Below, one piece after another: positions 11,739-21,073 of a stretch of DNA of 55,538 bases. A model generated the notes under the pieces. It was not told the origin of the DNA. It saw nothing but the letters and a program-made list of their open reading frames with translations, and made no database searches. The translations under genes were made by a program, and so were the position numbers. How positions within the stretch are numbered: the first letter of the stretch is position 1; the number at the start of each line of letters is the position of its first letter. The stretch is from Defluviitaleaceae bacterium (GTDB lineage Bacteria > Bacillota > Clostridia > Lachnospirales > WRAA01), in contig WRAW01000006.1 in NCBI GenBank assembly GCA_009780015.1, positions 1 through 55,538 of the forward strand, in the 5' to 3' direction.

Positions 11739-11941
11739 AGAACCTGTATTCATAGGATGGGAACGGCGTCTTAGCGGTCGATTTTCCGCCACAGTCCGCC
11801 CCATAAAGCCAAAACCGGGCTTTATGGGGGCCCCCGGATCGTCGGTTCCATCTTGCGTACCCTCTGTACGCGGCGTCACCTCATAGATTGGCGAAAAATC
11901 GCCTTGCTAATACGCCATTCCCACCTATGAATACAGGTTTT
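11739..11941. repeat. Dispersed palindromic element, copy 4
   Basis: The left end AGAACCTGTATTCATAGG and the reverse complement of the right end (AAAACCTGTATTCATAGG) pair with each other, a terminal sequence not shared with most other copies. The interior has the CCCCATAAAGCC/GGGCTTTATGGGG hairpin, a GCGTACC/GTACGC hairpin and GGCGAAAAATCGCC. It lies 29 bp upstream of the protease start. Confidence 0.9.
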
Positions 11942-12011: not shown

Positions 12012-12266
12012 AGAACCAGCGGTTAATAACACTCAACGCCATCTGGAAGGCCGAACTCCACCCCACGAAGCCAGAAGCAGGCTTCGTGGGGGCCCCGGTT
12101 TTCCACCACTCGTCGTCAGCGGATCCTTGCGTACCACTATGGGTACGCTCAGTCCACCCCACGAAGCCAAAACCGGGCTTCGCGGGGACCCTGGGCGTCG
12201 CCGCTTCCTAGATTGGCGAAAAATCGCCACTTCCAGCCAGCATTTCGGTTATTGACCGCTGGTTCT
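12012..12266. repeat. Dispersed palindromic element, copy 5 (overlaps pcp 3' end)
   Basis: The ends AGAACCAGCGGTTAATAAC and, in reverse complement, AGAACCAGCGGTCAATAACC pair. The interior carries two CCCCACGAAGCC-type hairpins and a GCGTACC/GGGTACGC hairpin. The right 59 bp are translated as the last codons of pcp. Only 70 bp separate it from copy 4; I see no gene between them. Confidence 0.9.
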
Positions 12267-12873
12267 CAGATATGCAAGCCAGTACGCAAGCCTGCAAGCC
12301 GTCGGTGATCTGCTGCATGGAAAGCGACGGCTTGTCCGGTTTGTCGAGGATTTGCTCAGTGGCATAGGGGACGTGTACGAAGCCGCCGCGGATTCCCTCA
12401 AATTCGGGTACGGTGGCCAGCATGTGCAGCAGGCCGTACATGACGTGATTGCATACATATGTGCCGGCGGTGTTGGATACGGAAGACGGTATTTTGACGG
12501 CGCGCACCGCGTCAACCATCGCCCTTATGGGAACTGTGGCGAAGTAGGCGTTTTGGCCGTCTTCAAAGATAGGAAGGTCTATGGGCTGGCTGCCGGAGTT
12601 GTCGGGAATTCGCGCGTCGTCGATGTTTATGGCTACGCGCTCGGGTGTGACGGCGAAGCGTCCTCCTGCTTGTCCGATACACAGCACCACTCCGGGGCTG
12701 TGCGCGCGGATCGCGTCCTCCAACACGCTGAGAGATTCGTAGAACACACAAGGCAGCTCCAGTTTGACGATATGACAGTCTCCGATGATATCGGGCAGAA
12801 GCCGTACGGCTTCATAGGACGGATTGACGCTTTCGCCGCCGAACGGCGCAAAGCCCGTAATCAATATGCGCAT
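12208..12873 (-). CDS. pcp: Pyroglutamyl-peptidase I
   Basis: A cytoplasmic cysteine peptidase that removes N-terminal pyroglutamate from peptides. About 221 residues with the start at MRILITGFAPFGG, the usual family N-terminus; the frame extends 29 codons further upstream but those codons are hydrophobic, unlike the family, and cross the -10 side of the rpoB promoter region. The catalytic Glu lies in TPERVAIN, the Cys in NTAGTYVCN and the His in FVHVPYATEQ. The last 20 residues or so, from SENQRSITEML, are encoded by a palindromic element and replace the native C-terminus. Confidence 0.93.
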   Translation of the reverse strand: MRILITGFAPFGGESVNPSYEAVRLLPDIIGDCHIVKLELPCVFYESLSVLEDAIRAHSPGVVLCIGQAGGRFAVTPERVAINIDDARIPDNSGSQPIDLPIFEDGQNAYFATVPIRAMVDAVRAVKIPSSVSNTAGTYVCNHVMYGLLHMLATVPEFEGIRGGFVHVPYATEQILDKPDKPSLSMQQITDGLQACVLACISENQRSITEMLAGSGDFSPI

Positions 12874-12941: not shown

Positions 12942-12970
12942 TTGACAAGTTTTTCCGCACGTGTTATAAT
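12942..12970 (+). promoter_or_regulatory. Consensus sigma-A promoter for rpoBC
   Basis: TTGACA at 12942-12947 and TATAAT at 12965-12970 with a 17-bp spacer form a perfect consensus. Transcription would start near 12977, leaving an untranslated leader of about 420 nt before rpoB. No closer promoter of similar quality is visible. Confidence 0.9.
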
Positions 12971-12976
12971 ATATTT

Positions 12977-13396
12977 TCGGTATTATTGAAGTGAAGTGAT
13001 TTCCGCTGTTGATTATTGCCGTGTAATCATAATAACACATCGGCTCGTACAGTTCAACATGTTTTTTCATTTTTCGATCGAAACAGCAATTGGCTCAACA
13101 ATTAATTGCGAAATGTTCAACAAAAGGTGGCCTGAATTTGACCTCAAATCATAACGATATGCACTTTCTGCGTACCGTCATAATTACACAAAGTATGTAG
13201 TACTTATAACTCGAATTATATTACTGCATTATTTTTTATGTTTATCGTATGCGGAGACTGCTAAGTTTATTTCTAAAAATACGATATTATGGAAATAATG
13301 CTGACATACATGTACTTGCTTTCGCAAAATAGACCTGTCCGGGAATCCTGCGATGTCGGACTCCCGGACAGGGTTAATATCAAAGGGGTGTGCTAA
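12977..13396 (+). promoter_or_regulatory. Long rpoB leader with terminal hairpin
   Basis: No open reading frame with a ribosome site is seen in these 420 bases. At the 3' end CCTGTCCGGGA (13334-13344) pairs perfectly with TCCCGGACAGG (13362-13372), and TCC/GGA extend it after a mismatch. No T-run follows, so it is not a simple terminator; it ends ten bases before the rpoB ribosome site. It could be an RNase III-type processing site or a translation control element. Confidence 0.6.
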
Positions 13397-16300
13397 TTGG
13401 AAAAACGCAGAGTAAAGTCCATGAGCTACGGGAACGCGGCGCGGATGAGCTATTCGCGCATTGACGAGGTTCTCGAAATGCCGAACCTTATTGAGGTTCA
13501 GAAGAACAGCTACAACTGGTTCCTGTCCGAAGGGCTGCGCGAGGTGTTCCAGGATATATCCCCCATATCTGATTTCAGCGGCAACCTTGTACTGGAGTTT
13601 GTCGACTTTAAGCTTGACAGCGAACCAAAGTACTCGATAGACGAGTGCAAGGAACGAGACGCCACATACGCCGCGCCCCTGCGTGTCAAGTGTCGCCTGC
13701 GCAACAAGGATCTTGACGAAATCAAGGAACAAGAGATATTCATGGGCGACTTCCCGCTCATGACGGACAACTGCACGTTCATCATCAACGGCGCGGAGCG
13801 CGTCATCGTCAGCCAGCTTGTGCGTTCGCCCGGGATATACTATGCCGTGGACTATGACAAGGTCGGCAAGCAGTTGTTCTCCGCCACGGTGATACCAAAC
13901 CGCGGAGCGTGGCTCGAGTACGAGACCGACAGCAACGACGTGTTCAGCATACGCGTCGACCGCACGCGCAAGGTTCCCGTTACGGTGCTTCTGCGCTCGC
14001 TCGGCGTAAGTACCGACGCCGAGATTATAGAGCTGTTCGGCGAAGAGCCGAAGATACTTAATACAATCGAGAAAGACGTCTCCAAAAACTATGAAGAAGG
14101 TCTGATCGAAATATACAAGCGCGTACGCCCCGGCGAGCCGCCCACAATCGAGTCGGCGGAATCGCTGTTGCGCTCCATGTTCTTTGACCCGAAGCGCTAC
14201 GATCTGGCCAAGGTCGGGCGGTACAAGTTCAACCAGAAGCTTTCCATGCGCAACCGCATAAGGGGCTACTATCTGGCCGAGGACGTTATCGACACCAACA
14301 CCGGCGAGATCGTGGCCGAAGCCGGTGACAAGGTTACGTTACAGACAGCCGACGCCATCCAGAATTCCGGCGCGGGATTCGCCTGGGTACAGGTGGAAGA
14401 CCGCAAGGTAAAGGTGCTAAGCAACCTGGCGGTGGTCGCGAACGACTATCTCAAGCCTTACGGAATCGATCCTCTGGAGGTCGGCATTAAGGAAAACGTG
14501 TACGCGCCCGTATTGATGGAACTGTTGGAAAAGTACGAAGACCCGCGCGAGCTAAAGGACGCCCTGCGCAACAACCTGTCGCGCCTTGTTCCCAAGCACA
14601 TAACGCTTGAGGACATAATGGCCTCTATAAACTATGTGATAAATCTGGATTACGGCATTGGCGGAAAGGACGACATAGACCATCTTGGCAATCGCCGGAT
14701 CCGCGCGGTGGGCGAGCTTTTGCAGAATCAGTTCCGCATCGGCCTCACGCGTATGGAGCGCGTCGTAAAAGAGCGTATGACCATTCAGGATATGGACGTG
14801 GTTACGCCGCAGGCGCTGATAAACATCCGCCCCGTCACGGCTTCCATCAAGGAGTTCTTTGGAAGTTCGCAGTTATCGCAGTTTATGGATCAGACGAATC
14901 CGCTGGCCGAGCTCACACACAAGCGCAGACTGTCGGCTCTGGGGCCCGGGGGGCTTTCGCGCGACCGCGCCGGTTTCGAGGTTCGCGACGTTCACTTCTC
15001 GCATTATGGGCGCATGTGCCCCATCGAGACGCCTGAAGGCCCAAACATCGGCCTGATAAACTCTCTTGCGACTTACGCACGTATCAACGAATACGGATTT
15101 ATCGAATCACCTTACAGATACATTGACAAAACCGGCAGCGTTCCGGTGGTTTCTCAGAAATTCGCGTACATCACCGCCGACGAAGAGGAAAACTACACCG
15201 TCGCCCAGGCCAACGAGCCGCTTGGAGATGATGGGCGCTTTCTGCACAGGAAGGTGGCGGGGCGTCACCGCGAGGATATTATTGAGCTTGAAGCGGCGAA
15301 TATCGACCTGATGGACGTATCGCCCAAGCAGATCGTGTCCGTGGCAACCGCCCTTATACCGTTTTTGGAAAACGACGACGTAACCCGTGCCCTGATGGGC
15401 TCCAACATGCAGCGTCAGGCCGTGCCGCTCTTGTGCACCGATTCGCCGATAATAGGCACGGGCATGGAATACAAGGGGGCAAGAGACTCCGGCGTTGTGG
15501 TGATCTCCAAGCAGCCCGGCGTGGTTGACAGCGTGGTGGCCAACGAGGTCATAATCCGCACGGAAGACGGCAAGCGTCAGTCTTACAAGCTCACCAAGTT
15601 CATGCGCAGCAATCAGGGTACGTGCATCAATCAGCGGCCGCTGGTCTTCAAGGGTCAGGTTGTGGAAGCCGGCGAAATTATCGCCGACGGCCCGTCAACC
15701 GACCACGGAGAGCTTGCGCTGGGTAAGAATCCGCTGATAGGCTTCATGACATGGGAAGGCTTTAACTACGAGGACGCAATCCTCCTTTCCGAAAAGCTTG
15801 TTGAAGAGGACGTCTACACGTCCATTCACATAGAGGAATACGAACTGGAATCCCGCGATACAAAGCTGGGGCCGGAGGAAATAACGCGCGACATCCCCAA
15901 CATCGGCGAAGACGCCATGAAAGACCTGAACGAACACGGTATAATCCGCATAGGCGCCGAGGTCGGCCCCAACGACATACTTGTCGGCAAGGTGACCCCA
16001 AAGGGCGAAACGGAGCTGACCGCAGAGGAACGCCTGCTTCGCGCCATATTCGGCGAAAAGGCGCGCGAGGTGCGCGACACGTCCCTGCGCGTGCCGCACG
16101 GTGAAAGCGGCATAATCGTAGACGTAAAAATATTCTCGCGCCTCAACAGCGACGAGCTGCCGCCCGGTGTGAACCAGCTTGTGCGGGTGTATATCGCCCA
16201 GAAGCGCAAGATTTCCGTGGGCGATAAAATGGCCGGAAGACACGGCAACAAGGGCGTTATATCCCGCGTGCTGCCTATCGAAGACATGCCGTTTCTGCCG

Positions 16301-17479
16301 AACGGCCGCCCGCTTGACATCGTGCTGAACCCCCTGGGCGTACCGTCACGCATGAACATCGGCCAGGTGCTTGAAGTCCATCTTGGCCTTGCCGCCAAGG
16401 TATTGGGCTGGAAGGTCGCCACGCCGGTATTCGACGGCGCGAACGAATACGACATCATGGACACCCTCGATCTGGCAAACGACTACGTGAACATGGAGTG
16501 GGAAGCCTTCTCCGTTAAGTGGAAGGAAATCGTGGAGGAAGACATTTATAACAAGCTCTATGAAAACCGCCACAACCGCGAGGAGTGGAAGGGAGTGCCC
16601 ATCAGCCGCGACGGCAAGATAGAGCTTCGCGACGGGCGTACCGGAGAGAAGTTCGACAACCCCGTAACCGTGGGCTACATGCACTACTTAAAACTCCACC
16701 ATCTGGTAGACGACAAGATACACGCGCGCTCGACGGGCCCGTACTCGCTTGTAACTCAGCAGCCGCTTGGCGGCCGCGCGCAGTTCGGCGGGCAGCGCTT
16801 CGGCGAAATGGAGGTTTGGGCGCTGGAAGCCTACGGCGCGTCCTATGCGCTGCAAGAAATTTTGACGGTCAAGTCCGATGACATTGTAGGAAGGGTCAAG
16901 ACCTACGAGGCGATTGTCAAGGGCGAAAACATCCCCGAACCGGGCGTGCCCGAATCTTTCAAGGTGTTGCTCAAGGAGCTCCAGGCCCTTGCGCTGGACG
17001 TCCGTATTTTGATGGCCGACCAGACAGAGGTCTTAATCAAGGAATCCATTGAAGACATCGACGACCTCAACGTCAACATCGAGGGCGCGGAGCCAAAGGG
17101 CGACGATATCGCGCAGAGGAGGAGCCTGGCGTTCAGCGACATTGAAGACTCCGAAGGTGATTTTGACGACGATCTCGACGACGAGTTGGATGATGAAGAT
17201 GAATTGGGCGACGAACTTGACGACATTGGCGATGAGGAAGACGAAGAACCGGAGGGCGAAGCCTTTAAAAGCTTAGACAAGGGTATGAAGAGCGGCGCAA
17301 AGTCTGCTAAGTTCAGCTCCGCTCCCGACTTCGACGGCGAAGAATTTGAAAAAGGTATCGACGATCTAGACTCAGCGCAAGCCGAACTGTTCGCGTCCTC
17401 AAGAATAATGAGCTCGAAGGTTCCCGAGGCGCTGGAGTCTTTCGACGACGACTTCTCCGATCTGGACGATGAGTATTAA
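13397..17479 (+). CDS. rpoB: RNA polymerase beta subunit with acidic C-terminal extension
   Basis: Catalytic beta subunit of RNA polymerase, 1360 residues. The rifampicin-binding region (about 488-520, [12 protein letters not shown]...[12 protein letters not shown]) is of the sensitive type. The conserved core ends near residue 1216 ([11 protein letters not shown]), after which about 145 extra residues follow, very rich in Asp and Glu and finishing SDLDDEY. Clostridial homologues usually end soon after the core. The start is a TTG eight bases after AAAGGGG; an ATG eight codons later is a weaker choice. rpoC follows after 21 bp. The usual rplJ-rplL genes are not upstream. Confidence 0.98.
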
Positions 17480-17500
17480 TACTATATAAGGGTGATTCCA

Positions 17501-20500
17501 ATGGCAAACCCGAACCAGAATGACCAAGCGATATCGTTTGATTCCATAAAAATCGGCTTGGCCTCCCCCGAAAAGATCAGGGAATGGTCGAAAGGCGAGG
17601 TCAAGAAGCCGGAAACAATAAATTACCGCACGCTAAAGCCCGAGCGCGACGGCCTGTTCTGCGAGAAGATATTCGGGCCGAACAAGGACTGGGAGTGCCA
17701 CTGCGGAAAGTACAAGCGCATACGCTACAAGGGCGTTGTATGCGACCGCTGCGGCGTCGAGGTTACAAAGTCGAAGGTGCGCCGCGAGCGCATGGGGCAC
17801 ATCGAACTGGCCGCGCCGGTATCGCATGTATGGTACTTCCGCGGAATACCCAGCCGGATGGGTCTTATACTGGCCATGAGTCCGCGCGCTCTTGAGAAGG
17901 TGCTCTACTTCGCGTCGTACATTGTACTTGACCCCGGTGAGACGGGGCTTACCTACAAGCAGCTTATGACCGAAAAGGAGTACCGCGAGGCTATCGAGAA
18001 GTACGGCTCATCCTCGTTCAAGGTGGGGATGGGTGCCGAGTCCATTAAAGAATTGCTGCAAAACATCGACCTGGAGGGCGAATCCGAAGAACTTAGAAAG
18101 GGTCTTCGCGATTCCGCCGGGCAGAAGCGTTTGCGGTACATCAAGAAGCTGGAGGTCATAGAATCGTTCCGTATTTCGGGAAACAGGCCGGATTGGATGA
18201 TACTGGACGCGATTCCCGTTATCCCGCCGGATTTGCGCCCGATGGTGCAGCTTGACGGCGGACGCTTCGCCACCAGCGACCTTAACGACCTTTACCGCCG
18301 TGTTATAAACCGCAATAACCGCCTCAAGCGTCTGCTAGACCTGGGCGCGCCGGATATAATTGTGCGCAACGAGAAGAGGATGCTCCAGGAGGCCGTGGAC
18401 GCGCTGATCGACAATGGGCGGCGCGGACGTCCCGTCACCGGGCCCGGCAACCGTGCGCTCAAGTCCCTGTCGGACCTGCTGAAAGGCAAGCAGGGCCGCT
18501 TCCGTCAGAACTTGCTTGGAAAGCGCGTGGATTACTCCGGTCGTTCGGTAATAGTCGTGGGGCCCAACCTCAAGATTTATCAGTGCGGGCTGCCCAAGGA
18601 AATGGCCATAGAGCTCTTCAAGCCGTTCGTAATGAAGAAGCTTGTGCAGGAGAACTTCGCCCACAACATCAAGTCCGCCAAGCGTATGGTCGAGCGGCTG
18701 CAGCCGGAAGTCTGGGACGTCCTCGAGGATGTCATAAAGGAACACCCTGTAATGCTCAACCGCGCTCCGACTCTGCACAGGCTGGGTATACAGGCTTTCG
18801 AGCCGGTGCTGGTCGAAGGGCGCGCTCTCAAGCTTCATCCGCTTGTGTGTACGGCGTTCAACGCCGACTTCGACGGCGACCAGATGCCCGTGCATGTGCC
18901 GCTCTCCGTAGAGGCGCAGGCCGAGTGCCGCTTCCTGCTTCTCGCGCCCAACAACCTGCTCAAGCCTTCGGACGGCGCGCCCGTAACGGTGCCGTCGCAG
19001 GACATGGTGCTTGGGATATACTACCTGACAATCGAAAAAGAGGGCGAGCTCGGCGAAGGCAAGTACTTCCTGGACGAAAACGAGGCAATACTGGCATATG
19101 AAAACGGCGCGATAACCCTTCACGCAAAGATACATGTCCGTCGTACGATAGAAGTAGGCGGTGAGCGATACCAGAAAGTGATTCCTACTACTGTGGGGCG
19201 GATAATATTCAACGAAGCCATTCCGCAGGACATCGGCTTTGTTGACCGCAGCGTCTTCGACAACAAGTTTCTGTTTGAGGTCGACTACCTTTGCGACAAA
19301 AAGGCGCTGGGCCGCATAATCAGCCGCTGTATTAACAAGTACGGCTCGATCAACACATCGATTGTGCTGGATAACATCAAGCAGCTGGGCTTTAAATACT
19401 CGACAATCGGGGCGTTCACCACGTCCGTATACGATATGGAGGTTCCCGAGGTAAAGGCGAAATACCTGGAGGAAGCCGAGACCGCCGTAGACAACGTGGG
19501 CAAGATGTTCCGCCGCGGCCTCATGACCGACGAGGAACGCCACAACAAGGTAATAGAGATATGGAGCAGCGCGAACGACAAGATCGCCGACGCTCTAATC
19601 AAGGGTCTTGGCCGCTACAACCCCATATTCATGATGGCGAACTCCGGCGCGCGCGGCTCCAACAACCAGATAAAGCAGCTGGCGGGAATGCGCGGCCTTA
19701 TGGCCAGCCCCAAGGGCGGCGTTCTGGAGCTGCCGATAAAGTCCAATTTCCGCGAGGGTCTGTCCGTGCTTGAGTACTTTATATCGGCGCACGGCGCGCG
19801 CAAGGGTCTGGCGGACACTGCGCTGCGCACGGCGGATTCGGGCTATCTGACCCGCCGTCTGGTGGACGTGTCTCAGGATATAGTAATCCGTGAGTGGGAC
19901 TGCGTACAGCCGGAGGAAGAGAAGCCCGGCTTGTGGGTATCGGCGTTTATGGACGGCAGCGAGGTTATCGAGCCGCTGGTTGACAGAATCCGTGGTCGCT
20001 GGTCTCTGCTTGACATTGTCAATCCGTCCACGGGCGCGCAGATTGTCGCGGCGGACTCCCTGATCAGCCCGGATCAGGCCGAAAAGATTGTGGAAGCCGG
20101 AATCGAGAACGTATACATCCGCACAGTGTTGACGTGCCGCTCCCGCGTAGGGCTGTGCTCCAAGTGCTACGGCGCGAACATGTCGTCGGGCAGAGCCGTC
20201 CGCATCGGCGAGGCCGTGGGCATCATCGCGGCTCAATCCATCGGCGAGCCGGGTACGCAGCTTACAATGCGAACATTCCAGACAGGCGGCATCGCCAGCA
20301 ACGAGGACATCACCCAGGGCCTTCCCCGCGTCGAGGAGCTCTTCGAGGCGCGCAAGCCCAAGGGTCTGGCCATTATCGCCGAATTCGGCGGCAAGGTGCT
20401 GGTCAGCGACACAAAGAAGAAGCGAGAGGTCGTCGTCACCAACGAAGAGACTGGCGAATACAAGGACTACTTGATACCATACGGTTCCCGAATAAAGGTA

Positions 20501-21073
20501 TACACCGGCGACGTGATAGAGGCCGGCGACGAATTGACGGAGGGCAGCGTCTACCCCCACGACATACTCAAGATAAAGGGCATACGCGGCGTGCAGGATT
20601 ATATGCTGCAAGAGGTTCAGCGCGTATACCGGCTTCAGGGCGTTGACATAAACGATAAGCACATCGAAGTTATCGTCCGCCAGATGCTAAAGCGCGTCAA
20701 GGTCGAGGAGAACAACGACACCACACTCCTGACCGGGTCGCTCACAGACTGGCTGGAATTCGAGGAACTTAACGAAAAAGCCACGGAACACGGCCTGGAA
20801 CCGGCCATCGGCCAGCGTGTGCTGCTGGGCATCACCAAGGCTTCCCTCGCCACGGACTCGTTCCTGTCCGCGGCATCCTTCCAAGAGACGACGCGCGTGC
20901 TTACAGAGGCCGCGATAAAGGGCAAGATCGACCCGCTCATCGGCCTCAAGGAGAACGTCATCATCGGCAAGCTGATTCCGGCGGGCACGGGTATGCAGTC
21001 CTACCGCGACATCGACGTCAAGCCGGCCGCAGAGCAATTTGCCAGCTATGACCTTGGAGCCGTCGGTGACTAA
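17501..21073 (+). CDS. rpoC: RNA polymerase beta' subunit
   Basis: Catalytic beta' subunit, about 1190 residues. The N-terminal zinc site is seen in CHCGKYK and CDRCGVEV. The active-site magnesium loop NADFDGDQM is at about 454-462, and a second zinc site lies in [11 protein letters not shown]. The frame opens at a GTG at 17492, but AAGGGTG is best spaced for the ATG at 17501. It is co-transcribed with rpoB and followed by a terminator-like hairpin rather than by rpsL-rpsG-fusA. Confidence 0.98.

Follow-up and report, generated by a model that had tools for sequence, protein, structure and literature searches.

A second promoter facing the rpoBC promoter in Defluviitaleaceae and related Clostridia suggests control of RNA polymerase synthesis by convergent-promoter interference

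How bacteria outside the enterobacteria control the level of their RNA polymerase is poorly known. In Bacillus subtilis, sub-inhibitory rifampicin induces helD and pps through two convergent promoters; mutation of the antisense -10 element releases the sense promoter, and the spacing between the promoters matters (PMC12802891, NAR 2026). The searches described in the accessible part of that paper required 45-55 bp between the two -10 elements in B. subtilis, or, in a wider version that covered only the 300 bp before each gene, 45-100 bp between promoters; rpoB is named there only as a mutant background or as a mass standard. In mycobacteria, sub-inhibitory rifampicin induces rpoB-rpoC through an interplay of promoters I and II, as summarized in the accessible part of PMC6181997. 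Searches of the freely accessible main literature for facing or antisense promoters, promoter interference and attenuators at rpoB listed no paper that reports a convergent pair there.

The stretch of DNA analyzed here (the window) comprises 55,538 nt from a Defluviitaleaceae bacterium whose assembled genome (G000) is incomplete, with 2.77 Mb in 183 contigs and an estimated completeness of 83.6%. We compared it with the only congener in our genome set (G001, rpoB locus L051); Defluviitaleaceae bins such as that of the congener are presumably of termite-gut origin. In the window, rpoB (13397-17479, plus strand, TTG start; PRK00405/TIGR02013) is preceded by a Shine-Dalgarno sequence, AAAGGGG (13382-13388), that is kept in the congener, and is followed by rpoC (17492-21073, plus strand; TIGR02386). 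Upstream lies the divergent gene pcp, encoding pyroglutamyl-peptidase I (12208-12873, minus strand), and GC-rich palindromic units of the types GAAGCC...GGCTTC and CCCCAT...ATGGGG occupy the intergenic DNA on both sides of pcp (11800-11840 and 12060-12190). The sequence-only reading had assigned rpoB a consensus promoter of its own, and this is borne out: the sigma-A-type sense promoter at 12942-12970 (plus strand; TTGACA-17-TATAAT with a TG extension of the -10) matches 12 of 12 consensus positions, recurs as a near-identical 29-mer in the congener, and is the sole perfect site among the nine promoter-like sites that a scan of 3 kb returned (2.9 expected). Such a promoter turned out not to be unusual: among the 110 rpoB loci retrieved solely through RpoB, 103 have both a sense promoter that reaches a score of 10 and a leader long enough to test (six had no such promoter and one leader was too short). 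In three loci with rplL upstream of rpoB (L006, L057 and L059), an inverted repeat, AGACCTTGACAGGTCT, contains the rpoB -35 element.

What the sequence-only reading overlooked is a second, opposed promoter. On the minus strand, the element at 13057-13029 reads TTGAAC-17-TGTTATTAT, with the -35 hexamer at 13057-13052 and the -10, in the context TG-n-TATTAT, at 13034-13029; it matches nine of 12 consensus positions in the promoter scan and in addition carries the TG extension. The two -10 elements are 58 bp apart. The congener has a counterpart in the same place, TTGAAT-17-TGTTATAAT, 46 bp from the sense -10.

Removal of 18 near-duplicates from the 103 leaders obtained by RpoB alone left 85 non-redundant ones. 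The motif TTGAnn-17-TGnTAWnnT occurred on the opposite strand in 23 of these, against 0.09 in shuffled leaders (first-order Markov resamplings rather than exact dinucleotide shuffles). Its spacing was nearly invariant: across spacers of 12-22 bp other than 17, only 12 and 18 gave a match, one each, and a same-strand control of the 85 leaders gave none at any spacer. A relaxed motif raised the count to 34 of 85 (0.24 expected from shuffles). The gaps between the -10 elements cluster at 41-63 bp in relatives, with two outliers at 82 and 85 bp, and in an alignment that includes pattern-chosen loci the information lies in the -35, TRTG and -10 of the antisense element, with a weak A-tract upstream of the -35 and little in the spacer.

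A strict pattern for the whole pair, designed after inspection of some loci, which makes part of the named loci a discovery set, gave 74 matches in 65 of the 246 genomes of the order, and the reversed pattern gave none in the same genomes. At least 51 of the 74 matches have rpoB downstream, 49 by coordinates (147-817 bp upstream on the same strand) and two by tblastn (L154 and L155); ten lie elsewhere and 13 are unplaced. Of the 246 genomes, 229 yielded an rpoB, 51 of them with the strict pair upstream, so that the arrangement is present in about one fifth and is not universal. Specificity is illustrated by the window's own genome, where the sense half alone matches 181 sites and the full pair matches once, at rpoB. 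Among 291 genomes at the class level, 26 carried the strict pattern, with 28 matches between them, and rpoB was found at only two of the 25 class-level loci L167-L191, namely L178, which is the window itself, and L187, so that its presence at rpoB is largely characteristic of this order. Other Clostridia showing the rpoB pair among the named loci are L109, L112-L120 and L128.

The pattern built on rpoB also picks up helD in other Clostridia: at L169, L170 and L171 the gene matches HelD_BACSU above the cut-off, and one of the 13 unplaced strict-pair matches (G098:C115:2890-2995) adjoins the start of a helD gene that occupies 1610-2839 of that contig on the minus strand. The same geometry, with 46-51 bp between the -10 elements, is seen at the clostridial helD loci L169, L170, L171, L211, L213, L215-L217, L225, L229 and L231. 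By one common score, the regions upstream of clostridial helD showed a convergent pair in eight of 29 cases, spaced 46-51 bp, and the rpoB regions, a set that was not de-duplicated, in 37 of 106; shuffles gave none in either case, and the window scores 22 at its gap of 58 bp. Among the genomes that carry the strict pair at rpoB, 15 of 51 had a HelD match (E<=1e-60), versus 92 of the 195 others (Fisher p 0.026, uncorrected for relatedness), which is no more than suggestive of a complementary distribution of helD and the rpoB pair among the genomes of the order.

By analogy with helD and pps, we consider it probable that rpoBC is under convergent-promoter interference and that its output increases whenever working RNA polymerase runs low, as under rifamycins. 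The sense promoter would read rpoBC, while antisense transcription would begin near 13022, about 45 bp past the sense start, and read back across it. We infer that both promoters are active and interfere with each other and that the signal is the availability or inhibition of RNA polymerase: polymerases meeting head-on would, through collision and occlusion, keep rpoBC below its maximum, and a shortage or arrest of polymerase, such as that imposed by a rifamycin, would weaken the interference and yield more sense transcripts. The gene so released would encode the drug target itself. From a 25-residue stretch, and judged by the residues that matter for the drug, the rifamycin pocket of the window's RpoB is of the sensitive type. 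More tentatively, the amount of free working polymerase might itself set the collision frequency in front of rpoBC, giving RNA polymerase synthesis in these Clostridia a self-measuring feedback that needs no dedicated regulator and of which drug sensing would be a special case; we give this wider version less credence than the interference itself. Hairpins further downstream would form secondary layers at most.

The predicted leader extends on the plus strand from a start placed near 12977 by the promoter to the TTG of rpoB, 12977-13396, so that the length of ~420 nt given by the sequence-only reading agrees with ours. The own promoter and the long leader are both supported, and an independent setting of the RNA polymerase level is their likely purpose, as that reading had proposed. 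The leader folds better than 100 of 100 shuffles (z -3.06). Its conservation extends to the congener, in pieces that are 70-72% identical, but nothing convincing was found by DNA beyond the genus in the genomes searched. The statement that the leader has no reading frame holds for frames of at least 80 aa but not for shorter ones, as a candidate upstream ORF of 20 codons with a TTG start lies at 13138-13200 (plus strand), unproven, behind a Shine-Dalgarno-like AAAGGTGG. The block CAAAAGGTGGCnTGAAnTTGAC at this ORF is kept in the congener, while the peptide itself is poorly conserved; we do not claim a conserved upstream peptide because MTSNHNDMHFLRTVIITQSM of the window and MTLNDTLRTVS of the congener (translated by eye) have little in common and the gaps between conserved stretches do not amount to complete codons. 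No Rfam family matched the whole window at gathering score, and the leader gave only four chance-level matches at E up to 10. Lacto-rpoB RNA is located in front of rpoB. It has been described as a candidate structured RNA named after that gene (RF01709; accessible part of PMC2864571), and the leader of the window has no match to its covariance model, whether the cut-off is the gathering score or is relaxed to E up to 10.

A different structured RNA was observed in the rpoB leaders of one family of the order, f18 (L131-L151, L019, L054 and L067; for example L054:2855-2944). It is ~97 nt long, with the core TGATCAAAG and AAAGGTCTAG, and is found as a single copy in 19 of 196 genomes of the order, all of them f18. 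The alignment contains 23 pairs, eight of which are changed on both sides, with 93.9% of cells paired, and none of 500 shuffles reached its score. In the loci tested, no Rfam 15 family matched it at gathering score. Upstream ORFs that seemed conserved in L054 and L067 were rejected because they run through this RNA and are broken in L144 and L145.

The antisense promoter might be explained more plainly by overlapping divergent units, in which it is simply the promoter of pcp and happens to overlap that of rpoB. The start of pcp is ~70 bp from the rpoB -35, a minus-strand gene stands upstream of rpoB in most of the 16 relatives inspected, and in the window and the congener the antisense promoter could indeed simply read pcp or serve it in addition. 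We consider this explanation unlikely. Inspection of ORFs showed that the pair is kept with a plus-strand upstream gene in L052, L054, L057, L059, L100 and L117 of the 16, that these co-directional genes include rplL, a plsC-like gene and others with the antisense promoter at the same spacing, and that the antisense promoter occurs also in genomes with quite different neighbors; the pair is therefore not merely serving a divergent gene. An own sense promoter is so common at rpoB among these relatives that the locus might also be read as a plain constitutive promoter followed by a long unused leader, yet this leaves aside an antisense element conserved far beyond chance at a fixed spacing, and we regard it as quite improbable.

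The leader offers two further sites at which control might be exerted. An AT-rich hairpin followed by TTTTTT (13195-13237, plus strand, -8.6 kcal/mol) resembles a terminator and is a possible attenuator that, perhaps coupled to the short ORF, would stop rpoBC transcription and place control in the read-through. The hairpin has a counterpart in the congener (-11.7 kcal/mol) in the same place and with the same U-run, and the f18 RNA provides a precedent within the order, as its covarying structure has an outer stem that runs into a U-run in the manner of a terminator. Against this, the folding energies are modest, with 5 of 200 and 20 of 200 shuffles folding as well; the f18 covariance model (R1) finds no match in the window, in L051 or in either of the two genomes; and a generic terminator scan of 41 selected leaders (40 scored, L056 lacking a sense promoter by the criterion of that scan) gave 8 against 7.6 expected, so that terminators were rejected as a general feature of rpoB leaders. 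Attenuation as the main control is doubtful, and the hairpin is weakly supported as a second control layer. The other site is the 14-bp stem ten bases before the ribosome-binding site, which the sequence-only reading proposed as a possible processing (RNase III) or autogenous site specific to rpoB. The stem itself is present (13334-13372, plus strand), ending 10 nt ahead of AAAGGGG, with 11 contiguous pairs, one mismatch and three further pairs; it is very stable (-28.1 kcal/mol, z -4.81), and the congener has a stem at the same place with different arm sequences and full pairing (-34.5 kcal/mol). It is nevertheless a short member of a scattered inverted-repeat family (AATAGACCTnT...), whose pattern ATTAGACCTNTNNNGRAA matches, with one mismatch allowed, 43 times in the window's genome, 51 times in the congener and 92 times in G010 versus 0-6 times in five other genomes, while a control pattern gave 0-1 matches in G000, G001 and G010. 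Copies also lie inside or between unrelated genes, and a dedicated role of the stem at rpoB is highly improbable. With the own promoter common in relatives and the stem part of a repeat family, neither is special to rpoB here, and the facing antisense promoter is the better-supported regulatory device than the stem. The family, with the motif AATAGACCTnTnnnGRAA (window 13328-13378; L161-L166), is interspersed in G000, G001 and G010, and many of its copies face a partner on the other strand at a distance of about 120-270 bp, an arrangement that we take to be MITE-like.

If interference between the facing promoters does control rpoBC, the recently described rifampicin alarm would reach beyond resistance genes to the target of the drug, and rifamycins or fidaxomicin would be predicted to make many gut Clostridia produce more RNA polymerase. 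The conserved pair would thereby supply a testable mechanism of RNA polymerase control.

Among the known systems, the helD/pps alarm, as described in the accessible part of PMC12802891, is the closest: both have two facing sigma-A-type promoters with -10 elements about 45-60 bp apart and an extended -10 in the antisense promoter, and in both the controlled gene is tied to RNA polymerase, although here it is rpoBC, the drug target itself. The 58-bp gap of the window falls outside the narrow 45-55 bp filter of that study but inside its wide range of 45-100 bp, and the pair, at 455 bp from the start codon (fewer than 300 in many relatives), lies beyond the 300-bp limit of its search. Two differences count against a mere copy of the helD scheme: the antisense promoter dominates at helD, whereas the sense promoter of the window matches the consensus more closely (12 versus 9 of 12) and is by that measure the stronger, and the antisense spacer is 19 bp in helD/pps but 17 bp in the window and the scored relatives (17-18 bp at clostridial helD). 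Mycobacteria share with the window an rpoBC operon of its own with two promoters, but according to the accessible part of PMC6181997 promoters I and II are in tandem and their effect requires the transcribed region between them, whereas the pair of the window is convergent. In E. coli, following the same source, rifampicin raises rpoBC output through the rplL-rpoB attenuator, as is proposed here by another route, but this works by read-through within a ribosomal-protein operon, whereas the rpoBC of the window is detached from rplJL. Since rifampicin raises rpoB transcription in mycobacteria and E. coli by other means, the response would be conserved and the device different.
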